Source: Alphaproteobacteria bacterium (lineage in GTDB: Bacteria; Pseudomonadota; Alphaproteobacteria; Sphingomonadales; Govanellaceae). From it: a stretch of 34,427 nucleotides of DNA. The first letter of the stretch is position 1; the number at the start of each line of letters is the position of its first letter. Below are positions 18,859-33,362 of the stretch, in pieces. The stretch lies in the NCBI GenBank assembly GCA_003695065.1, contig RFJA01000030.1, positions 1 through 34,427 on the forward strand, in the 5' to 3' direction. A program made the translations under genes and the position numbers. The notes under the pieces were generated by a model. The model saw nothing but the letters and a program-made list of their open reading frames with translations, ran no database searches and was not told the DNA's origin.

Positions 18859-20682
18859 ATGGCCACCCCCTTCGTCTTGCTCGAAACCATTGGCAATGCC
18901 CGCGCCGGTTTTCCCAACCGGTTTTACGCCGCCCCCAGGGAGGTGATCGTTTGCACCTGCCAGGACGAGGTGTCAGACGCCATCGCCGCCATGGATAGCG
19001 CCCTTGAAGCGGGTTGCCATCTTGCCGGCTGGATCGCCTATGAGGTGGGTTATGCGCTGGAGCCGCGCCTGGCGCCTCTGGCGCCCCGGGATGGAACCGC
19101 CCCCTTGATCTGGATGGGCGTTTTCGATGGCTTCGAAGTGGTTGACGGGTCGCTGCGCAACCGGCTGGTTGGCGCCCCCCGGCACGAGGCAAATGCCTTC
19201 ATGCGCGTCGACAGCCTCGAACCCGGGATCACCAAAGCCGTCTACGCCGACGCCCTCGCCCGGATTCATGACTATCTGGTGGCCGGCGACGTTTATCAGA
19301 TCAACTACACTTTTCCCCTGCGTTTTCGATTGGAAGGGACGCCTGGCGCCCTTTACCGGCGGCTTCGCGATGCCCAGCCGGTGGGATTCGGGGCGTGGAT
19401 CGATACTGGCGAAATCACCGTCTTGTCGCTGTCGCCGGAGCTTTTCATGGAAAAGGCCGGCACCAGCATGACCACGCGGCCGATGAAAGGGACCATGCCG
19501 CGCGGCCGCACGCCGGCAGAAGATGACGAGGCAGCTCGCTCACTCGCCACCGACCCCAAGTCGCGCGCCGAAAACCTGATGATTGTCGACCTGTTGCGCA
19601 ATGATCTCAGCCGCATCGCCAAAGCTGGCAGCGTCAAGGTTCCCGAACTGTTCGCGGTGGAGCGCTACCGAACGCTTTTGCAGATGACCTCGACCATCAC
19701 GGCGCAGGTGGATCGGGATTTGTCGATGGCAGCATTGCTGCGTAGCCTGTTCCCCTGCGGGTCCGTGACCGGTGCACCCAAGATCAGGGCCATGGAAATC
19801 ATCCGAGAGCTCGAATCCGCGCCACGCGGCCCTTATACCGGCGCTATCGGCTGCATCTCCCCCGATCGCGATTTCACCTTTTCGGTCCCCATAAGAACGC
19901 TGACGCTGCAACCGGAGGATCCCACCGGCCGGGTGTTAAGGGGTACGCTCGGCATCGGTTCGGGCATCGTGGCGGACTCGGAGACCGCAGCGGAGTATGA
20001 GGAATGCCTTCTGAAAGGCCGGTTTCTGACCGCGCCGCAGCCTGCCTTCGACCTCATCGAGACCCTGGGATGGTCGAAAGGGGAGGGCTACCGTTTTCTC
20101 GACCGCCATTTGGCCCGCCTCGGTGCCTCCGCCCGGTTCTTCGGCTTCACTTTTGACGAAAACGCGGTCCGGGCGCAGCTGGATCACATCGCCCAATCTC
20201 TGACCAGCGAAAGCCTGTACCGGGTGCGCCTCGTGCTGGCCGAAAGCGGCGCGGTTACGGTCTCGGCCGCACCAATGACAGACCGCCCGCCAGAAACGCC
20301 GCAAGTGACGCTCGCCCGATCACCCGTCGACAGCGCGGACCCCCTCCTTTATCACAAGACCACGGCGCGCCAGTTCTATAATCGGGAACTGGCGGCGGCG
20401 CGGGCCAGCACCGGCTGTATCGACGTATTATTCCAGAACGAGCGCGGCGCCCTGACCGAGGGCAGCTTCACCAATCTGTTTATTGAAAAGAGCGGGCAGC
20501 TCCTGACCCCGCCGGTGGACGCGGGCCTGCTCCCTGGAGTGCTCCGGGCCGAGTTGATCGCGACGGGGCGGGCGGTCGAAGCGGCGTTGACCCCGGCCGA
20601 CCTCGAACAGGCCGACGGAATATACGTGGGCAACGCCCTTCGCGGTCTTATTGAAGTGAGCTTGGCCCCAAGCAGTCGCTAG
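18859..20682 (+). CDS. pabB: Bifunctional aminodeoxychorismate synthase component I / 4-amino-4-deoxychorismate lyase fusion
   Basis: Chorismate-binding region: GDVYQINYTFPLRF, TRPMKGTMPRG, SLFPCGSVTGAPKIRAMEIIRELE. PabC/class IV aminotransferase-like C-terminus: GCIDVLFQNERGALTEGSFTNLFIEKSGQLLTPPVDAGLLPGVLR. Confidence 0.92.
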   Translation: MATPFVLLETIGNARAGFPNRFYAAPREVIVCTCQDEVSDAIAAMDSALEAGCHLAGWIAYEVGYALEPRLAPLAPRDGTAPLIWMGVFDGFEVVDGSLRNRLVGAPRHEANAFMRVDSLEPGITKAVYADALARIHDYLVAGDVYQINYTFPLRFRLEGTPGALYRRLRDAQPVGFGAWIDTGEITVLSLSPELFMEKAGTSMTTRPMKGTMPRGRTPAEDDEAARSLATDPKSRAENLMIVDLLRNDLSRIAKAGSVKVPELFAVERYRTLLQMTSTITAQVDRDLSMAALLRSLFPCGSVTGAPKIRAMEIIRELESAPRGPYTGAIGCISPDRDFTFSVPIRTLTLQPEDPTGRVLRGTLGIGSGIVADSETAAEYEECLLKGRFLTAPQPAFDLIETLGWSKGEGYRFLDRHLARLGASARFFGFTFDENAVRAQLDHIAQSLTSESLYRVRLVLAESGAVTVSAAPMTDRPPETPQVTLARSPVDSADPLLYHKTTARQFYNRELAAARASTGCIDVLFQNERGALTEGSFTNLFIEKSGQLLTPPVDAGLLPGVLRAELIATGRAVEAALTPADLEQADGIYVGNALRGLIEVSLAPSSR

Positions 20683-21644
20683 CGGCGCACCACGAAGCAG
20701 TCACCGTCTGCTTCCTGAATTCGGGCGCATCGCGTCACCGCCGCCGGGCGGCTGTCAAAGGCACCAAGCAGCAGACGGTAGACCCTGCGGCCGTCTTCAA
20801 GAATCGCCTCTTCAACCCGCAGGTCCTTGTCAGCCATCAAAGGCCCGAATGTGTCGACCAAGCGCTTCCCCGCGGCATCGGCGCCGGCAGCAGAGCTCAC
20901 GGCGCCCAACTGAACATAATAGCCGGAAAGCGCCTGATCACCGGCCGCCACGGGATTGGCGGCAGGCGACTCGGCGCCATTGCCTGGAGTTGACGCATTT
21001 TGCGCCATCACGGCCGAGTCCGCAGAGGCAAAGTCGGTCTCGACAGGGAGTTCATGGACACGAGGCACCAGCTCGTTGCCCGCCGCCAGTTCCTTCACCG
21101 ACAGCGCCCGAATCAGCTTTTTCTCCGCCGCCACCGCTTCGGGCAGGCCGGCGATCGCAGCCTTGCGAATCCAGGCATAGGCGCGCACGGTGTCGCGGGG
21201 CAGATGCTTGCCATTGTAGTACAGAAGGCCCAGCATGTATTGGGATCGGGCATCACCCGCGCGGGCCGCCTTTTGCCACCATCTGAGCGCCGCGGCCACC
21301 CTTGGGGAGTCGTCGAACCCGAAGTAATAAAGCGTCCCCAGATTTCCCTGGGCCGATACATGCCCCAGTTCGGCCGCGCGGCGATAGAAATATTCGGCCA
21401 TCACCGGATCCCTGGCAACCCCCTTGCCCATCCGGTAGAGCTGCCCCATGTTGAACAGTGCGTCCGGGTGATCGGCATCGGCCAAGGGCATCCAGGCCTC
21501 GATCGCGGCCTGATAGTCACCACGCTCATAGGCCGCCACACCGTCCTCAAGATCACCCGCTGCCGCGGCCGCTGCTGCGATCCGGACCAACGCAACAAAA
21601 ACCACAGCCACCGTCGGCAAGCCGCGCAAATCCTTGATCACCAC
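20679..21644 (-). CDS. Sel1-repeat protein with C-terminal SPOR domain
   Basis: Sel1 repeats: DALFNMGQLYRMGKGVARDPVMAEYFYRRAAELGHVSAQGNLGTLYYFG, SQYMLGLLYYNGKHLPRDTVRAYAWIRKAAIAG. SPOR-like C-terminus: GYYVQLGAVSSAAGADAAGKRL...RVYRLLLGAFDSRPAAVTRCARIQEADGDCFVV. Confidence 0.87.
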   Translation of the reverse strand: MVIKDLRGLPTVAVVFVALVRIAAAAAAAGDLEDGVAAYERGDYQAAIEAWMPLADADHPDALFNMGQLYRMGKGVARDPVMAEYFYRRAAELGHVSAQGNLGTLYYFGFDDSPRVAAALRWWQKAARAGDARSQYMLGLLYYNGKHLPRDTVRAYAWIRKAAIAGLPEAVAAEKKLIRALSVKELAAGNELVPRVHELPVETDFASADSAVMAQNASTPGNGAESPAANPVAAGDQALSGYYVQLGAVSSAAGADAAGKRLVDTFGPLMADKDLRVEEAILEDGRRVYRLLLGAFDSRPAAVTRCARIQEADGDCFVVRR

Positions 21645-21830
21645 CTTCGATCATCCCTCTTCGCCAGATTTCCAGGCAGCGCAGGCGCCCTTCGGAGATC
21701 CTGCACGGGCCCGCGCCGGAACGCAACACACGCCTGTTTCCCAAAGCAGTTTTTACCCGGGCAACCGGGCAAACGTCATACGAAAAACAACGGGTTACAT
21801 CTCCGAAAAGTTTACGGAATATCTTTTCGT

Positions 21831-21845
21831 TTAACCAATTCTTAA
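21831..21845. promoter_or_regulatory. CtrA-type box upstream of the ParA operon
   Basis: TTAA-CCAATTC-TTAA, an exact TTAA-N7-TTAA, ending 83 bp before the ParA ATG. Confidence 0.65.
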
Positions 21846-21928
21846 GAGGCGGCGCCCTACCCTCCATGCTGGAATGCCCGAATTTACGGGTTTTCGCGCT
21901 TGCAACGGGCCAGAGAAAGGATTGAGCC

Positions 21929-22642
21929 ATGCGCGTGATCGCATTTGCATCGCAGAAGGGAGGGTCGGGAAAGACCACGCTCAGCGGACATGTGGCCGTC
22001 GAAGCGGAGCGCCGGGGCGACGGGCCGGTTGTTCTGGTGGATGCCGACCCGCAGGGTAGCCTGTCCGAATGGTGGAACGCGCGTGAAGCGCCAACACCGG
22101 CCTTCGCCCAGACCACGGTTTCCCGGCTCCTGACCGATCTTGACGACCTCAAGGCGCGTGGTTTCAAACTGGCGATTATCGACACCCCCCCGGCGATCAC
22201 GCTGGCGATTCAGAGCGTGATAGCGGTGGCCGACATGGTGGTCATTCCCACCCGACCCAGTCCGCACGACCTGCGCGCCGCCGGCGCTACGGTCGAGCTG
22301 GCGGAGCGATCCAACAAGCCGCTGTTATTTGTGGTAAACGCGGCGACCCCGCGCGCCCGCATTACAGCCGATGCCGCCATCGCCTTGTCGCAGCACGGCA
22401 CCGTTGCGCCGGTGACCATCCATCAGCGCACAGACTTTGCGTCCAGCATGATTGACGGGCGCACGGTAATGGAAATCAACGAAAAATCCCGATCAGCCCG
22501 GGAAATCAGCGACCTGTGGGAGTATGTGAGTGACCGGCTGGAACGCAATTTCCGCCGCACCGTGTTCCAGGCCAGCGCGGTCAGCCGGCGGGATATACAG
22601 CCGCGAACCGGATTTGGCCGTCGTCACGCCAACGCTTCGTAA
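21929..22642 (+). CDS. ParA/MinD-like P-loop ATPase
   Basis: Deviant Walker A SQKGGSGKTTLSGHVA; VVLVDADPQGSLSEW; KLAIIDTPPAI; VVIPTRPSPHDLRAAG. Confidence 0.93.
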   Translation: MRVIAFASQKGGSGKTTLSGHVAVEAERRGDGPVVLVDADPQGSLSEWWNAREAPTPAFAQTTVSRLLTDLDDLKARGFKLAIIDTPPAITLAIQSVIAVADMVVIPTRPSPHDLRAAGATVELAERSNKPLLFVVNAATPRARITADAAIALSQHGTVAPVTIHQRTDFASSMIDGRTVMEINEKSRSAREISDLWEYVSDRLERNFRRTVFQASAVSRRDIQPRTGFGRRHANAS

Positions 22643-22678
22643 GTGCGAGACCCGAAGAACCGACGGGAGTGGAAGACA

Positions 22679-23293
22679 ATGAAGAAAGCAGCCCGCCTGA
22701 GCAGCTCGCTCCTTGCCAGGAAAGGTTTTGCCTCTCCGGCGGCCGCCGTGCCCATGTTCGGCAAGGCGCATCACTACGGGCAGACCAGCCATCACCACAT
22801 ACGCGACGTTGTGTATGACCATGTGGATCCGGAACAGGTCGACCTCGACCCCGACTTGGCCGGTGACTCGGCCCAGCCTCGCCACGAAGATGGCGACAGC
22901 TTCGTCCGACGCATCGAAAAAGGACTGAAATCGCTGCGCCGGGCGGCCGAAGGTGACGAGAAAAATGATGACGCGCTGTCGCCAGCAGTCGAACCGGCAC
23001 AAAAAGCCCGCTCGTCGGCGACCAAATCCGAAAAGACCGGCTCCAAAAAGACGAGCAAGACCGGCAGCGTGCCGGAAGGTTGCTGCCAGGGCAAACCTTC
23101 CCGGAAACGGGTGGCCATGACACTCCGTCTGGACCAGCAGCGCCATTTGCGGCTCCGGATCCTGTCGGCCCACATCAATCGCAGCAGCCAGGATATCCTG
23201 ACCGAGGCTCTGGACAGGTTTCTGGACCAGTTCGCCCACATGCCTGAAATGCGCCAGTGCGACTGCCTGAAGGCGCAAGCGGATAACAGCTAG
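22679..23293 (+). CDS. Uncharacterised protein with basic/charged linker and RHH-like C-terminus
   Basis: C-terminal RKRVAMTLRLDQQRHLRLRILSAHINRSSQDILTEALDRFLDQF resembles a ribbon-helix-helix DNA-binding region. Starts 36 bp after the ParA stop. Confidence 0.68.
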   Translation: MKKAARLSSSLLARKGFASPAAAVPMFGKAHHYGQTSHHHIRDVVYDHVDPEQVDLDPDLAGDSAQPRHEDGDSFVRRIEKGLKSLRRAAEGDEKNDDALSPAVEPAQKARSSATKSEKTGSKKTSKTGSVPEGCCQGKPSRKRVAMTLRLDQQRHLRLRILSAHINRSSQDILTEALDRFLDQFAHMPEMRQCDCLKAQADNS

Positions 23294-23376
23294 CGGCCTG
23301 GTCCGAAAAGCCTCGAGAGGAACACGGCATCAAAGGCCGGTTTAAGGGGATGTAAACACTCCCCGCGTAGGCTTGA

Positions 23377-24837
23377 ATGAACGCACAAAGATCCTTGCAA
23401 CGAGGAAGCCGAGTGACTGCGATGCATCATCAGACCACCAGACCCGCCAGCATCTCGCCGGTCGACAAAAGCTGCGACGAAGGCGTCACCGCCCCTGTCC
23501 GCTCCGGAAGGCTGCTGCGCAGCTCGGTGGCTGCCGTCGCGCTTGCCGTGGCATTGGCCGGGTGCACCGCCAACCCGGAATCGCGGATCGCTGACTACGC
23601 GACCAGCACCCGCACCATGGAACAGGGCGGCAACAGCCTGCTCAGCCTGGCCGAGACCATGGCCGCGGATGGCGATCATGCCGCCGCCGTGCCGGTTTTT
23701 CGGCGCGCCCATGCCAGGGATCCCAACGCGGCTGAACCGCTGGTAGGCCTTGGCCGCTCGCTGATGGCGCTGGGCCAGGTTGCTGCTGCGGAACACGCGT
23801 TCCGCGACGCGGTTGACAGGGACGACAATGATCCCGACGCCCTGGCGGGACTGGGCAGCGCCCTGGTCAGGTTGAACCGGCCAGAGGCGGCCATCGCGCT
23901 ATTCGAGGATGCGCTGCGCATCGATTTCGACCACGGCGAGGCAACCCGCGGGCTCGCCCTTGCGCTGGATATGACAGGTCAGCATGACGCCGCTATCGCC
24001 ACCTATGAGCAGGCCCTTGACCGAGATAGTGAGGACCTCAAGCTGCGCAACAATTATGGCCTGTCACTGGCGCTGTTCGGCGAGTCCGATGCCGGCGTGC
24101 GAGTGCTTGAAGACGTTCTGCGCGACGATCGCGCCGGACCGTCGCAGCGCCAGAATATGGCGCTCGCATATGTTCTGGCGGGTAACGAGCGAGACGCCGT
24201 CCGAATGATCGCGATCGACCAGGATACCCGGACGGTGGGTCAGACCCTCGATTATTTCCGGATCATCAAGATGCTCGCCCCCGAGGACCGCCTGGCGGCG
24301 CTGGTGGCCGGGACGACTCCGCCAAAACAGGACACCACCAGGCCCGCAAACCGGAGCTACGACAACGACGCGGAAACCAGGGTCGAAACAGCCAGACGAA
24401 TTGTCGGACTGGACGTCGAGCAGGTCGTGGAAGACCCCTTCCCCGAACCGGCGCCCATGCCCGAACCGGAGCCGGAACCCGCGCCGCATGAAGACGCCGA
24501 TCTTTCAGGCATTCCGCTGATGGCGCCGGGCGAAGGCTGGTCCCTGCAGATCGCGGCCTACCGCAAGGCGAGCCAGCTCGTGGCCGGCTGGAAGCTGCTG
24601 CGAGAAAAATATTTCAGCATCATCGGCGATCTGGAGCCACGCCGCACCGAAATCGACTTCGGCGATCGACCGGAAAAACCCAATGGTTTCTTCTATCGGC
24701 TCAACGCGGGCCCGCTGACATCGCTTGAGGAAGCGACCGAAAAATGCCGCCAGATGCGGGATCTGGGCGCCGATTGCTGGGTTCGTCCGCCAGAGGAAGA
24801 TGAAAACGCAGCGCCCACCCCGGAGCTGTTTCAGTAG
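23377..24837 (+). CDS. TPR (TadD-like) lipoprotein with C-terminal SPOR domain
   Basis: Lipobox-like VALAGC after a hydrophobic stretch. Multiple TPRs (e.g. PNAAEPLVGLGRSLMALGQVAAAEHAFRDAVDRDDNDPDALAGLGSALVRLNRPEAAIALFEDAL). SPOR-like C-terminus with C-x11-C (EKCRQMRDLGADCWV). N-terminal start uncertain. Confidence 0.83.
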   Translation: MNAQRSLQRGSRVTAMHHQTTRPASISPVDKSCDEGVTAPVRSGRLLRSSVAAVALAVALAGCTANPESRIADYATSTRTMEQGGNSLLSLAETMAADGDHAAAVPVFRRAHARDPNAAEPLVGLGRSLMALGQVAAAEHAFRDAVDRDDNDPDALAGLGSALVRLNRPEAAIALFEDALRIDFDHGEATRGLALALDMTGQHDAAIATYEQALDRDSEDLKLRNNYGLSLALFGESDAGVRVLEDVLRDDRAGPSQRQNMALAYVLAGNERDAVRMIAIDQDTRTVGQTLDYFRIIKMLAPEDRLAALVAGTTPPKQDTTRPANRSYDNDAETRVETARRIVGLDVEQVVEDPFPEPAPMPEPEPEPAPHEDADLSGIPLMAPGEGWSLQIAAYRKASQLVAGWKLLREKYFSIIGDLEPRRTEIDFGDRPEKPNGFFYRLNAGPLTSLEEATEKCRQMRDLGADCWVRPPEEDENAAPTPELFQ

Positions 24838-25374: not shown

Positions 25375-25839
25375 TCAGGCTGCCGAAGGTGTTTCCTGCG
25401 TGGCCAGAAGCGCATGGATTGCATCTGGCCCCTCGGCCTTCCGGAGCTTGTCACAAATCGCGCGATCGCGCAGCAGGCGGGAGACTTTAGCCAACATCTT
25501 CAAATGATCGGCCCCGGCACTTTCCGGCGCCAGAAGCAAAAAGATCAGGTCAACCGGCTGTTCGTCGACCGAGTCAAAATCGATAGGCTGAACCAGCCGG
25601 GCAACAACCCCATAGAGCCGGTCCAGACCGGACAATTTTCCGTGCGGGATCGCCACACCTTGGCCGACGCCGGTTGTGCCGAGCTTTTCGCGCTCCAGGA
25701 GCACATCCAGAATCTCCCGGGAATCAAGCCCGGTAAGGTCGGCGGCCCGCGCCGAAAGCTCCTGCAGCGCCTGCTTCTTGCTCGATACCCTGAGTGCCGC
25801 GACGACGGCCTCTAGCGGGACGAGTTCCTGAAGTTCCAT
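25375..25839 (-). CDS. ptsN: PTS IIA-like nitrogen regulatory protein
   Basis: IIA active-site region GTTGVGQGVAIPHGKLSGLDRLYG. Located downstream of rpoN-hpf as in many proteobacteria. Confidence 0.93.
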   Translation of the reverse strand: MELQELVPLEAVVAALRVSSKKQALQELSARAADLTGLDSREILDVLLEREKLGTTGVGQGVAIPHGKLSGLDRLYGVVARLVQPIDFDSVDEQPVDLIFLLLAPESAGADHLKMLAKVSRLLRDRAICDKLRKAEGPDAIHALLATQETPSAA

Positions 25840-25844
25840 GGTTC

Positions 25845-26447
25845 TCAGACCGTCTTGGTCTTTACGTTTTCAGGATCGACCCAACCGATATTTCCGTCAG
25901 GTCGACGGTAAACCACATTGACCCCGCCGTGCGCGCTGTTGCGGAACATGAATGCCGGCTGCTCGGCCAGATCCATACGCATCACAGCCTCGCCCACGGT
26001 CATTTCCGGGATCGCTGTCGTTGTTTCGGCGATAATGATGGGTTCGTCACCACCCTCGCCGTGCGCCTCAAGGTCGTCGTCTTCTTGGGCGTCGCCGGCT
26101 ATCACATAGGCTGCGACACGCCATTCCTCTTCGGCCCGCTCGACCCGTTTCTTGTGATGGTCCGTCAGCCGACGCTTGTATCGGCGCAAACGTTTCTCAA
26201 GCTTGTCAGCGGCGGCGTCGAAAGCGGCGTAGATATCGTCCGCCTCTCCATGGCTCTGGAGATAGAGATCGTGCCCCGCATGTACGGTGCAATCCGCCCT
26301 GAACAGATATCTTTCCTTCGTCAGGGTAACAGTCGCTTCATGGGTGTCGTTGAAAAACTTCACCAGACCTTGACCGAGACGGTTCTCGATATGAGTGCGC
26401 AACGCATCACCCACATCAATGTTTTTTCCGGTAACCGTGATTTGCAT
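25845..26447 (-). CDS. hpf: Ribosome hibernation promoting factor (long form)
   Basis: MQITVTGKNIDVGDALRTHIENRL...HEATVTLTKERYLFRADCTVHAGHDLYLQSHGEADDIYAAFDAAADKLEKRLRRYKRRL with a C-terminal extension (long-form HPF). Confidence 0.94.
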   Translation of the reverse strand: MQITVTGKNIDVGDALRTHIENRLGQGLVKFFNDTHEATVTLTKERYLFRADCTVHAGHDLYLQSHGEADDIYAAFDAAADKLEKRLRRYKRRLTDHHKKRVERAEEEWRVAAYVIAGDAQEDDDLEAHGEGGDEPIIIAETTTAIPEMTVGEAVMRMDLAEQPAFMFRNSAHGGVNVVYRRPDGNIGWVDPENVKTKTV

Positions 26448-26662
26448 TGCGTGATTGAGAAGCCTTGTTGGATCGAGTTACAGAATAAGCGCGACTCTGG
26501 TGCGCTCCACAAAAATCCGCGGAAGAAATAGTTGTCAGCCCTGCCGCTGTCAATCTTTTATACTACCACAAACCTTCTCCCGCCAGAACGTTCATTGCGC
26601 CGCCCGTCCCGACCGTCGGTTTGCCTCCTTCGCTTGCCATCGACTCCGGGGCGTTCCCAGCG

Positions 26663-28171
26663 TCAACCCGCCAGCTTCTTTTCCCGGCGGCGCTGAACCG
26701 AGGACGGAATGCGCAGGGCTTCCCGATATTTGGCTACTGTTCGCCGGGCGATCTCGATCCCCTCTTGCTTCAGAATCTCCACCAGCTTGTCATCGGACAA
26801 AACCGCCTTGGGATCTTCAGCGTCAATCAATTCCCGAATGCGCTGCTTTACGGATTCGGCGGAGTGCGCCTCACCATCACCCGAAGCCGGGATCGCCGAC
26901 GTGAAGAAATACTTCATTTCGAAGATGCCGCGTTCGCACGCGAGATACTTGTTGGACGTTACGCGGCTGACGGTACTTTCGTGCATGTCGATGGCCTCGG
27001 CAATTGCCTTGAGGTTGAGCGGCTTCAAATGGCGCACGCCATGAAGGAAGAACCCCTCCTGCTGGCGCACCAGTTCGGTTGCCACCTTGAGAATGGTGCG
27101 GGCCCGCTGGTCGAGCGCCTTCACCAGCCAGTTGGCGTTGGCCAGACAGTCGTTCAGATAGGTCTTTTCGGCCTTTTCATGCGCCCGCCCCGCAAGTTCG
27201 GCGTGGTAGGCGGTATTCACAAGAACCTTGGGCAGGGTATCGCTGTTGACCTCCACCAGCCAAATCCCCTTGGGGCTGCGCCGCACGAATACGTCGGGCA
27301 CCACCACCTGGGCCTGCTCACCACCAAAGGCCAGGCCAGGCTTGGGGTTGAGCGTCCTGAGCTCCTCCACCATATCGGCCAGATCTTCCTCATCGACGCC
27401 GCATGCCCGCTTGAGACCGGCGAAATCCCGCTTCGCCAGCAGCTCGAGATTGTCCAGAAACACCATCATTACAGGATCAAGGCGATCGCGGTCCTTGAGC
27501 TGCAAAGCCAGACATTCCTTGAGATCCCGGGCGAACACGCCGACCGGATCGAATTCCTGCAACCGCTCCAGAACCTGTTGCACCTCCTCCTGCGTGCATC
27601 CGAGCTTCTCGGCAACAATTTCCAGTTCGTCCCGGAGATACCCCGCCTCATCGACCATATCTATGAGAAAATGGGCGATCATTTCGTCGGACGGAGAAAA
27701 CTGAGCCAGAGGAACCTGCGCTTCCAGGTGACTCTTGAGGGTCTCGGCAGCGGACACGTTCTGCTCGAAATCATAGTCGCCGCTGTAGCTGCCGCCGCTG
27801 CCAATCGGCGTACCGCCATTGAGGCTGAGGCCAGTCTGGCCTTCTCCGTCCTGAGACCGGTCGCTTTCATAAAGATTGTCGTAATCGGTATCGAGCGGGG
27901 CTTCCCGTTCCGATACCGAATCGGACCGCAGCTTGATATCGGCCGCCGACAGCGGTGTTTCCACCCTGGGGGCTTCGGGTTGCGGCTCCCCTTCCACCGG
28001 CGGTTCGGGGCCCTCGCTGAACTCAAGGAGCGGATTCTTTTCCACTTCCTGGGCGACGAAATCGTTGAGCTCGATATTGGTGTATTGCAACAGCTTGATC
28101 GCCTGTTGCAATTGCGGCGTCATCACCAGGGTTTGGGTATGCTTGAGCTCCAGTCGTGGTGACAGTGCCAT
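26663..28171 (-). CDS. rpoN: RNA polymerase sigma-54 factor
   Basis: Region I LELKHTQTLVMTPQLQQAIKLLQYTNIEL. RpoN box ARRTVAKYREALRIPSS. HESTVSRVTSNKYLACERGIFEMKYFFTSAI. Confidence 0.97.
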   Translation of the reverse strand: MALSPRLELKHTQTLVMTPQLQQAIKLLQYTNIELNDFVAQEVEKNPLLEFSEGPEPPVEGEPQPEAPRVETPLSAADIKLRSDSVSEREAPLDTDYDNLYESDRSQDGEGQTGLSLNGGTPIGSGGSYSGDYDFEQNVSAAETLKSHLEAQVPLAQFSPSDEMIAHFLIDMVDEAGYLRDELEIVAEKLGCTQEEVQQVLERLQEFDPVGVFARDLKECLALQLKDRDRLDPVMMVFLDNLELLAKRDFAGLKRACGVDEEDLADMVEELRTLNPKPGLAFGGEQAQVVVPDVFVRRSPKGIWLVEVNSDTLPKVLVNTAYHAELAGRAHEKAEKTYLNDCLANANWLVKALDQRARTILKVATELVRQQEGFFLHGVRHLKPLNLKAIAEAIDMHESTVSRVTSNKYLACERGIFEMKYFFTSAIPASGDGEAHSAESVKQRIRELIDAEDPKAVLSDDKLVEILKQEGIEIARRTVAKYREALRIPSSVQRRREKKLAG

Positions 28172-28180
28172 TGCCGATCC

Positions 28181-29026
28181 CTATAGCCTGAATCGTTCGC
28201 CAAGATAGACCCGACGCACATCAGGATTGGCAACGATTTCCTCGGGCGGCCCCTCCATGAGCACTGCCCCGTCGTGAATGATGTACGCCCGGTCCACGAT
28301 ATCGAGTGTCTCGCGCACATTGTGATCCGTGATCAGGACACCGAGCCCCCGGTGTTTGAGATGAGTGACCAGTTCGCGAATGTCATTGATCGCGATGGGG
28401 TCGATCCCGGCGAATGGCTCATCAAGCAGGATGATGCTCGGCCGCGCCGCCAGCGCCCGCGCGATCTCCACCCGGCGACGCTCGCCACCGGACAAGGCCA
28501 GCGCGGGTGCATGGCGAAGCCGGGCAATGGAAAATTCCGCGAGCAGGTCATCCAGCATGACCTGGCGCGTATCCCTGTCCTTTTCCGTCACCTCAAGCAC
28601 CGCCAATATATTATCCTCGACCGATAGCCCTCGGAAGATCGACGCTTCCTGGGGCAGATAACCAATCCCGAGCCGGGCCCGGCGAAACATGGGCAGCCGG
28701 GTTATGTCCTCGCCATCCAGCAAGATCCTGCCGGAATCTGGCGCGATCAGACCGGTAATGGTGTAAAAACTGGTGGTCTTGCCGGCACCGTTGGGCCCCA
28801 GCAGACCAACCACCTCTCCCCGCTTCACCGAAAGGCTGACGCCGCGCAGCACCGGACGCTTCTTGAAGCTCCTGGTCACATTGCGGACCAGAAGTCCGTC
28901 ACTGTCGAGCGTCGCCTCTGGGGTCGCCCCGCGCTCCGTCCCTGGCGACTCGCGCCCCGGGGGAGTGGCAACTGTTGCGTCCTTCAATACCTGCCCCTTT
29001 TCACCCGAGGTCGTTCTGTTACCCAT
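28181..29026 (-). CDS. lptB: LPS export ABC transporter ATP-binding protein
   Basis: [83 protein letters not shown]; located between lptA and rpoN. Confidence 0.96.
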
Positions 29027-29111
29027 TCAACATCCAACGCCTTAAAAAATCGTATTCAATCAACGCGTCCGTCGATCTCTCCACATGGCTTGCGCCACCC
29101 GGGTCTCCACC

Positions 29112-29666
29112 CTAGCCGTCCTTACCACCGGCCGGCACGAACCGCCCCTTGACGCGCCCTTTGCCACCGGTCTCCTCGGATCCGGTATCGGCCGTCTCCA
29201 GCCGGGTCACCCCCGTTCTGAGATCCACCAGCAACCGGTCGCCTTCGACCCTGACTTCTCCGCGTTCCAAAACCACGTTACCGCCGAGCGTGATCAGCCG
29301 CTGTTCCAGATCGTATACCCCCCACTCGCTGCGCACCACTTCGCTGGGGGAGGTGAGGCGTACCGCGCCGGCCGCGTCAATACGCGCAATGGTCGGCGCG
29401 CCACCATCGGAGCCCAGGGGACGAGCGGACTCGTAGTACACCACCACACGGTCGGCGTTCAGGGTCAATTCCTCCTGAACCGCTTCCACGCCGCCTTCAA
29501 AAATGGCCTTGTTGTCCTCGGTGCGCACTTCGAGACGATCGGCCGAAATGTCTATGGCGCGCCTGAAATCATGGTCCTTGAGCGCCGAGATGTCCTCGGC
29601 GTGCGCACTGCCCGCCCACAGGACCGCGATCACGGCCGTCATGCCTATGCCGAAACGAGCGATCAC
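29112..29666 (-). CDS. lptA: LPS transport periplasmic protein LptA (OstA-like)
   Basis: Signal peptide, OstA-like repeats (IDISADRLEVRTEDNKAIFEGGVEAVQEELTLNADRVVVYYE). Between lptC and lptB. Confidence 0.9.
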   Translation of the reverse strand: MIARFGIGMTAVIAVLWAGSAHAEDISALKDHDFRRAIDISADRLEVRTEDNKAIFEGGVEAVQEELTLNADRVVVYYESARPLGSDGGAPTIARIDAAGAVRLTSPSEVVRSEWGVYDLEQRLITLGGNVVLERGEVRVEGDRLLVDLRTGVTRLETADTGSEETGGKGRVKGRFVPAGGKDG

Positions 29667-30358
29667 TCCGTTTTCTCCTCATCTTCAAAGGACCGATAGC
29701 CAGGATCAAGGCGCACCTGGACCTTGCCCTCAAGCACCACTGTACTCCCCGACACATCGGCCGAGAAGCGGTCAGCGGCGAACGACCCGAATGGCGCTGC
29801 CCCGCGAACACCGCCGTCACCCTGCATGGCCCCCCGGTCAAGGTCGAGGGTCAGCCTTTCGCCCTCGAAACTGTATCCGCCGCCGGCCCGCAGGCGAATG
29901 CCATGGTCGAGGATAAGACGTTCTTCCTCCGGCCGGTAAATCCCGCGCGCCGCGGCCGCGGTGACATCGTCGCCGCTGTCAAGCCGCAGGCTGGCCCGCA
30001 CCCCGTCAAGCCGAACCGCATTGGCATTGATCCCTTGTTGCACCGCATGATCCGCAGCGATGGCGAATCTGCGGTCCCGGGCATCGGTGCCGAGATAGCG
30101 CGGCTCGACCATGCGGATCTCGTCACCGCTCTTCTCAAGCTCGCGATACGACAACGTCACACTGGCTTCCTGACCGCTCAGAAATGGCCAGGCAATGATC
30201 AGAGCAAGCAGGGCAAGCGCGGACAGCGGCAACAGCACCTTGCTGAAACGCACACTGCGGTCCAGCCCTCGGTCATCCACCACCGGCCGATTGGCAAAAA
30301 ACTCGGCCAGTTCCCCTTCCCGGCGCGCCTGTTCCTTATTCGGCTGTTCCTGCGCCAT
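29663..30358 (-). CDS. lptC: LPS export periplasmic protein LptC
   Basis: Single N-terminal TM then an LptC-like beta-rich domain (MVEPRYLGTDARDRRFAIAADHAVQQG). Overlaps lptA by ATGA. Start at MAQEQPNKEQ. Confidence 0.87.
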   Translation of the reverse strand: MAQEQPNKEQARREGELAEFFANRPVVDDRGLDRSVRFSKVLLPLSALALLALIIAWPFLSGQEASVTLSYRELEKSGDEIRMVEPRYLGTDARDRRFAIAADHAVQQGINANAVRLDGVRASLRLDSGDDVTAAAARGIYRPEEERLILDHGIRLRAGGGYSFEGERLTLDLDRGAMQGDGGVRGAAPFGSFAADRFSADVSGSTVVLEGKVQVRLDPGYRSFEDEEKTE

Positions 30359-30521
30359 CACCCCGCACCACCTGCTTCCCGGGTTGTTCAACGTCTTCAT
30401 AGAAGCGGGCGACCCGGACCTCACGGCCGAAACCCCGCCGAGCAAGAATCATGCCGGCTTTGGCACCGTTGCGCAAGGCGTTCACGTCGCAAAGCCAGAA
30501 AATTGCGCCTGGGGAATCCGT

Positions 30522-31398: not shown

Positions 31399-31413
31399 TT
31401 AACCCCCCATTAA
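31399..31413. promoter_or_regulatory. CtrA-type box upstream of the small membrane protein/MCP operon
   Basis: TTAA-CCCCCCA-TTAA, an exact TTAA-N7-TTAA, about 50 bp upstream of the likely start at 31464. Confidence 0.65.
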
Positions 31414-31808: not shown

Positions 31809-33362
31809 ATGTCATCGCTTGATGCCTTTCGCGACACCTCCACCAAGGCGCTGGCCATCGCGCAATGGCTGCATCTTCCCGTAGTGCTGCTCCTTGGCTG
31901 GGCAATCGGCGCTGACGGCGTTCTTTTCGCCGGTCTGCTATCTGCAATCGTCGCGGGCAGCGGCTTCGCTGCGTGGATCATTGGGGGGGCGGCGCCCTTG
32001 AGCCGAAATCTTATCGCCGCGGGCTATGTCCTCCAGGCGGCGCTGCTCGTTTTCCTGTTCCACGGGCATCCGTGGCAGATCGACATGCATATGTATTTCT
32101 TTGCCGCCCTGGCCATCGGTACGGCCATGTTCGACTGGCGCAGCATTGCGATCGCTGCGGCGGTAACCGCGGTCCATCACCTGGTCCTCAATATTCTCCT
32201 GCCTGTGTGGGTATTTCCCGATGGCGCGAGTATCCTGCGCGTAGCGCTCCATGCGGTGATTGTCGTCTTCGAAGCCGGGGCATTGATCTGGCTTTCGGCC
32301 AAGCTGAATGACGCCTTTACCAACGCCGACACCGCGCGGGCAGATGCATTGAAGGAGGCGGAAAAGGCCAATACTGCGGCTCGCGAGGCGGAGGAAGCGC
32401 GCAAGGCCGCCGAGCAGGCGCTTGCGGAAAGCCGCAACGCCCGTGAGGAAAAAGAACGACTGCAGGCGGAACGGGAGGCCGAGCGCAAACGTCTTGAACA
32501 GCAAGCGCAAGAGCGGCTCGCGCGACTGGCGGAGGACTTTGAAGCAAACATTGGCAGCATCGTACGCGACATTGAAAATGCTTCCCGGGCCCTGTTGGAG
32601 GAAGGCCACAATCTTGGAACCGCCGCGTCGGACGCGCGCGATATGCTCAATGCTGCGGCGAACCTGACCGACAACATCAACAACAACTCGACGACCGTCG
32701 CCGCAGGCGCAGAGGAGATGAATTCTTCCATAGGCGAGATTGCGCGTCAGGTCGCGGGAAGCCTGGAAATCACGGAAAACGCGCTGCGCGCCGTGGCGCA
32801 AAGCAAAGACACTTTAGGCACGCTTGTGGAACGCGCCGAATCCATTACCAGCGTTGTCGACATGATCAACGAAATTGCCGAGCAGACCAACTTGCTGGCC
32901 CTCAACGCGACCATTGAGGCTGCCCGGGCGGGCGAGGCGGGCAAGGGATTTGCAGTGGTCGCGTCGGAAGTCAAGTCGCTTGCCAATCAATCGGCCAAGG
33001 CGACGCAGCAGATTTCCGACCAACTTTCGGCCATGCAAGCCATCAGCCGCGACATCGTTGACGTCGTGCAGGAAATCGCCGAAACCATTCAGCGCAGCAA
33101 TGAATATGCCAGGAACATCTCATCCGCGGTGGAAGAGCAAAGTGCAGCCACGCGTGAGATTAGCCACTCGGCCCAGGCCGCTAGCCAGGAGACGGGGGAA
33201 GCAGCGCACCGTGTCGCCGCCGTTCTCGGCCTTATGGAAAGGGTTGACGGTTCGGCTGGCATCAATAGCGGCGAGGCAGCCAAACTCTCGGAACAGGCGA
33301 GGCAGTTGTCGGAACGCTGCCACGCCTTCCTCGACGCGATCAGAAAGACCAACGCCGCCTGA
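31809..33362 (+). CDS. Methyl-accepting chemotaxis protein with multi-TM N-terminal module
   Basis: Signalling hairpin tip [47 protein letters not shown]. Several N-terminal hydrophobic helices, then a long coiled coil. Confidence 0.95.

Follow-up and report, generated by a model that had tools for sequence, protein, structure and literature searches.

What might a small chromosomal ParA position, and through which partner, when it is encoded beside proteins with SPOR domains and behind a CtrA-type promoter box? The question is raised by a locus within a 34,427 nucleotide stretch of an alphaproteobacterial genome (the whole of this stretch is called the window here), which consists of ordinary components in an unusual arrangement. 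Many ParA-type ATPases have been termed orphans as their partners are too diverse to be recognised (PMC10241942), and the preliminary description of this DNA also called its ParA an orphan. That label is wrong, since a ParG-like partner is encoded directly downstream.

Gene content and gene order

The box, the ParA with its deviant Walker A motif, the middle ORF and the TPR-SPOR lipoprotein ORF are all present as earlier described (Table 1), with 83 bases between the box and the ATG of ParA. The three genes stand as a cluster, to which a fourth member that had been missed has to be added, a divergent gene encoding Sel1 repeats and a SPOR domain. The start of the partner has been placed at the ATG at 22679, and not at the GTG at 22643, because the N-termini of its relatives align and are conserved from there. 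In Pfam the SPOR domains of both flanking genes score above the cut-off (28.4 and 48.1 bits, the cut-off being 21); the TPR-SPOR protein matches SPOR at 2e-6, and the Sel1-SPOR protein matches Sel1 at 5.6e-23 and SPOR at 1.5e-12.

Table 1. Features of the ParA locus, in coordinates of the window
Feature	Position	Strand	Remarks
CtrA-type box TTAACCAATTCTTAA	21831-21845	+	Between ParA and the divergent Sel1-SPOR gene, in the promoter region of both
ParA ATPase ORF	21929-22642	+	237 aa, small ParF-type, KGGSGKTT; ATG at 21929
ParG-like partner (middle ORF)	22679-23293	+	N-terminal tag, variable charged linker, C-terminal RHH
Partner tag KAARLSSSLLARKGFASPAAAV	22685-22750	+	Predicted ParA-docking peptide; alignment A4 and genome-wide co-occurrence with ParA
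Partner RHH-like domain	23108-23236	+	RVAMTLRLD strand and two helices
TPR-SPOR lipoprotein	23377-24837	+	Lipobox LAGC, Cys codon 23563-23565; SPOR about 24529-24786
Divergent Sel1-repeat/SPOR gene	20679-21644	-	Fourth member of the conserved cluster

The three-gene order had been expected to be a matter of Rhodospirillales, which is the wrong lineage, the host and its relatives with named contigs belonging to Sphingomonadales in GTDB (Sphingomonas, Novosphingobium, Erythrobacter, Emcibacter, Kordiimonadaceae). The gene order itself is well conserved: of 39 orthologous loci in relatives from Sphingomonadales, 37 have ParA, partner and TPR-SPOR gene in succession; one of the remaining two lies at a contig end (L065) and the other is a divergent copy (L059). 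The Sel1-SPOR gene is found in 29 of the 39, in 23 of them divergently upstream of ParA and in six between the partner and the TPR-SPOR gene, and 23 of the 39 loci match the exact four-gene arrangement of the window. Downstream of the TPR-SPOR gene, on the minus strand at 25375-30445, there is a run of six genes which by eye we take to be ptsN, hpf, rpoN, lptB, lptA and an lptC-like gene, presumably a common proteobacterial cluster.

The ParA ATPase and its partner

The window's ParA falls within the 200-240 aa of the small ParAs, it has no N-terminal HTH and its KGGSGKTT motif lies at residue 10; in Pfam it matches AAA_31 (1.7e-15) and CbiA (5.4e-12). The solved structures nearest to its profile are TP228 ParF (4dzz) and the ParA of 5u1g, both at 1e-22. 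With a threshold of E below 1e-60 the ParA was found in 52 of 385 sampled alphaproteobacterial genomes, and its relatives across order and class, from many families, are 54-80% identical to the window copy, with K10, K15, D38 and D85 invariant throughout the family.

The absence of a ParB-like gene from the locus, which had been reported earlier, has held up. In Pfam the partner has no ParB_N domain, so that this ParA lacks the neighbouring ParB by which a chromosomal ParABS system is recognised, and the only ParB_N match in the genome is on another contig (C67), where it adjoins a canonical ParA; the canonical parAB is thus apart from the window.

An RHH-like C-terminus had been proposed for the middle protein and is borne out both by the partner family profile, which among PDB entries matches ParG (1p94, weakly, at 0.0083), omega repressor and other RHH proteins, and by an AlphaFold2 model of the partner alone, in which two RHH helices are predicted with pLDDT above 95. 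Foldseek matches of this model are mostly RHH proteins, at E above 1, and Pfam finds almost nothing in the partner, Antitox_RHH being a weak match at 0.014. When 57 partners are aligned they resolve into an N-terminal block, an unconserved linker and the RHH C-terminus, and this ParG-like layout agrees with the role of ParA adaptor that had been suggested for the protein. The single middle protein gave no matches when used as a query against the genome contigs, whereas the ParA family alignment did give matches.

Many partners end in a CxC motif, as seen in the window (CDC, 23250-23270) and at L084, L085 and L090; it is present in 26 of 113 partners within the order and 23 of 44 outside it, and is absent from the plasmid partners examined.

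A conserved N-terminal tag

The N-terminal block of the partners has the consensus xLxxxLLARKGxAxPA, in which the K, G, A and P of K-G-x-A-x-P are invariant in the 57 sequences of alignment A4. With a profile made from this block alone (22 positions) the tag can be followed through whole genomes, and it keeps close company with ParA. In 157 of 175 loci a tag-bearing ORF lies 300-1500 nt beyond the start of ParA, compared with 2 of 175 in a minus-strand control, and several of the 18 loci without a standard tag are contig ends or have a diverged block such as FATLTADMMERRGA. Of 38 genomes with the ParA 37 match the profile, and of seven without it none does; genomes with two ParAs can hold two tags, each adjoining one ParA, and the profile search of the genomes found no convincing tags away from ParA. 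There is an exception, which counts against the explanation that we favour below: in three Novosphingobium genomes (L110, L141, L142) the ParA looks intact and the TPR gene is kept, yet the tag is nowhere in the genome.

Since known ParA partners dock on their ATPase with a flexible N-terminal peptide, the remainder of the protein serving the cargo (PMC10241942), the tag is predicted by analogy to be a ParA-docking peptide, and the exchanged C-termini described in the next section may be read as links to cargo. In the TP228 complex 5u1g about 15 N-terminal residues of the partner become a helix in the groove of the ParA dimer, Gly16 and Arg19 being the mapped partner residues (PMC5393062). An AlphaFold2 prediction of an artificial monomeric read-through fusion of ParA and partner, with the TAA read as Q, left the tag undocked at a pLDDT of ~46; the known site lies at the dimer interface.

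Exchange of the C-terminal domain

Outside the order the same tag is found on proteins of another kind. At seven loci from five families (L088, L091, L092, L093, L186, L190, L198) the tagged partner has a SPOR domain (Pfam 5e-7 to 8e-15) at its C-terminus, joined to the tag through a transmembrane segment of hydrophobic residues, and at one of these loci, L088, a second tagged gene follows that encodes a DivK-like receiver (Response_reg 1.6e-25). The tag-DivK protein has an 85% identical full-length copy in a second species, making two species in total, and in each of the two genomes there is, besides, a DivK-like protein encoded separately and without the tag. This swapping of the domain behind the tag to SPOR and to DivK is new, and we regard it as the result of greatest interest; to judge from sequence, it suggests that ParA is tied to the septal cell wall and to cell-cycle signalling. 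In the ParA tree the SPOR swaps need three changes, of which the supported branches force only one.

When loci of the window's order were searched with a SPOR profile built for the purpose, 117 of 120 had a SPOR gene close to ParA. Outside the order this is so in 7 of 55 loci, where it is always the tagged partner itself, and in the other 48 no SPOR gene was found nearby with this profile, so that SPOR cargo is not universal to the ParA family. The survey therefore gives two forms of the association between ParA and SPOR, neighbouring genes in Sphingomonadales and fusions elsewhere.

The link from ParA to a SPOR protein that had been put forward for this locus gains independent support from the seven fusion loci, in which it is predicted to be one polypeptide with the tag in the cytoplasm and the SPOR domain in the periplasm. 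The part that falls is any direct contact: in the window's genome ParA is cytoplasmic and the lipoprotein periplasmic, so that the two cannot touch. The RHH partner is likewise cytoplasmic, whereas the window's SPOR proteins are in the periplasm or outer membrane, and a link between partner and SPOR proteins therefore needs a bridge. In the literature searched, mostly papers outside subscription, we found no experiments on the window's ParA family and nothing direct on a ParA-SPOR link or on regulation of this ParA by CtrA, nor did we meet a description of a transmembrane SPOR protein that has a ParA tag at a cytoplasmic N-terminus.

The CtrA-type box

The box is exact, as had been noted, and it is conserved with the N7 spacing of the CtrA type. 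Allowing one mismatch at most, 37 of 40 regions upstream of ParA have TTAA-N7-TTAA between -60 and -145, as have 70 of 80 among named genomes; the loci are related and some genomes were entered twice, so these counts are not independent. In the 40 regions shuffled sequences gave a mean of 5.2 and a maximum of 10, an N6 spacing gave 23, all other spacings 5-10 and AATT half-sites 4-10, and the half-sites of the box persist while the sequence around them changes between families. The genome encodes CtrA, the presence of which had been an earlier concern, with 78% identity over 227 aa to Caulobacter CtrA, and CtrA would presumably bind at the box. Outside the order the box occurs in 14 of 55 loci, which is no enrichment, and CtrA control therefore appears from these comparisons to be a trait of the window's order.

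The number of exact motifs in the genome was considered as evidence and rejected, since the motif has 26 sites and the reversed pattern 21; because of this an exact box taken by itself is weak evidence, and it is the conservation that carries weight. In the window the exact motif occurs twice, with 0.06 expected, the second copy at 31399-31413 lying ~400 bp before a methyl-accepting chemotaxis-like gene (31809-33362, plus strand). Elsewhere in the genome (L074, contig C162 4428-5814) a paralogue of the TPR-SPOR lipoprotein gene has an exact TTAA-N7-TTAA of its own, ~100 bp before its likely start.

A proposed positioning module and its alternatives

Our best guess, which we hold with moderate confidence, is that the locus is a chromosomal positioning module of plasmid ParF/ParG descent that is timed by CtrA and tied to the envelope at the division site. 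ParA-ATP dimers would bind the nucleoid, and the tag of the partner would dock in the groove of the ParA dimer and trigger ATP hydrolysis; ParA would be cleared locally, and the partner would trail the gradient of ParA. The C-terminal half would form the link to cargo, here as a dimeric RHH, and in sister lineages either as a DivK-like receiver or as a SPOR domain anchored in the membrane. Expression in Sphingomonadales would be under CtrA and alongside two SPOR proteins, and it is because of this company that we propose, as the probable task of the module, that it couples the envelope at the septum or pole to the nucleoid or to the state of the cell cycle; that the output should concern the envelope is suggested by the permanent linkage of two SPOR proteins to the pair. 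Against this reading weigh the Novosphingobium genomes devoid of the tag, the undocked tag of the monomeric AlphaFold2 model (though not decisively), the bridge that a link to the window's SPOR proteins requires and, outside the order, the lack of enrichment of the box and of nearby SPOR genes at most loci.

It would seem unlikely that the pair is instead engaged in DNA partition, with the RHH partner binding a chromosomal site, ParA segregating or tethering that region and the SPOR genes being merely co-regulated neighbours. RHH is a DNA-binding fold, the matches of the partner profile are to ParG and omega repressor, and the plasmid kin, which adjoin replication initiator genes, are presumably partition genes. 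However, the sequence upstream of ParA (21640-21935) has no centromere-like repeats, 8-nt repeats being all that was found there, and the genome already has its canonical parAB on another contig. Partition would also have to accommodate the replacement of RHH by SPOR or a receiver elsewhere, and SPOR genes that stay beside the pair across the order. In NCBIfam the ParA scores 171.7 bits against NF041546 (ParA family partition ATPase), narrowly below the curated cut-off of 180, and on account of this and of the missing centromere-like repeats the pair has not been filed as a partition system.

The compact genes, with a divergent promoter in common and a conserved box, could also be taken for a regulatory switch, in which the RHH partner represses the divergent promoter and the SPOR genes, much as ParG does its own operon, and ParA tunes this repression, moving no cargo. 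Autoregulation is indeed carried out by the centromere-binding protein of small-ParA systems (PMC5393062). A switch leaves unexplained, however, why the tag should also be joined to a receiver and to SPOR proteins with a transmembrane segment, none of which has a DNA-binding domain, and we regard it as very unlikely. That the locus is a relic of plasmid integration, maintained by drift and with no positioning role, is hardly credible: the plasmid relatives described below would suit it, but ParA is conserved across many families with its catalytic residues invariant and the gene order is kept in nearly all orthologous loci.

Returning to the positioning module, a broader proposition can be made which we consider evenly balanced, namely that one conserved tag is the interchangeable cargo handle of a ParA family widespread in Alphaproteobacteria. 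Exchange of the domain behind the tag would then have harnessed one nucleoid-based motor to three kinds of target: DNA, through RHH; peptidoglycan of the septum on the far side of the inner membrane, through tag-TM-SPOR; and the CtrA/DivK cell-cycle circuit, through tag-DivK. Nucleoid position, cell-wall constriction and cell-cycle signalling would thereby be linked directly. If true, it shows a plasmid segregation pair turned into a general positioning device and, for Alphaproteobacteria including Sphingomonadales, offers a testable link of ParA with DivK, CtrA and the septal SPOR proteins. A conveyor pair with a shared, predicted docking tag suggests a reusable system for placing different cargo in the cell, and the practical value of such a tag is that a short conserved sequence identifies the partner of a ParA without experiments, whilst the domains joined to that sequence indicate the cargo.

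Comparison with known systems

The closest known system is ParF/ParG of TP228 (4dzz, 5u1g, 1p94), which also has a small Walker-box ParA without an N-terminal HTH and, downstream, a partner with an N-terminal peptide (here the predicted docking tag) and a C-terminal RHH; by analogy the ParA-partner pair of the window would work like ParF/ParG. Unlike ParF/ParG, the pair is chromosomal, has no visible centromere repeats and has SPOR genes and a CtrA-type box beside it; its partners are 100-250 aa with a long linker and the tag LLARKGxAxPA, and in its relatives the C-terminal domain has been swapped for SPOR or a receiver.

In McdAB, ParC, FlhG and MinDE it is again an N-terminal peptide of the partner, a "luggage tag", that joins the ATPase to its cargo (PMC10241942). 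Whilst each of these has a separate, dedicated partner, the ParA family of the window has one conserved tag and a cargo half that varies by lineage. In the PomXYZ system of Myxococcus a ParA-like ATPase, PomZ, serves to position the division site (PMC7993993), whereas the genes beside the window's ParA encode SPOR proteins and a partner of the RHH type. The SPOR domains of both flanking genes and of the tagged partners score above the Pfam cut-off, as expected of SPOR-domain proteins of the FtsN-like and DamX-like kinds, from which the tagged partners differ in adding an N-terminal ParA tag that is predicted to be cytoplasmic.

Plasmid relatives and origin

Small plasmids of Comamonas, Deefgea, Thiothrix and an uncultured host encode ParAs that are 57-65% identical to that of the window, followed by RHH partners of 80-114 aa with the same tag block, for example MSKTASLTSGLVAKKGQAAPA. 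Because plasmids have such ParAs together with tagged RHH partners, the simplest reading of the sequences is that the chromosomal module probably descended from a domesticated plasmid partition pair. A 10.7 kb contig, L097 (G216 contig C2), is probably a plasmid as well. Its ParA is 50% identical, its RHH partner has 84 aa and a tag that has diverged, and the contig also has a resolvase-like gene.
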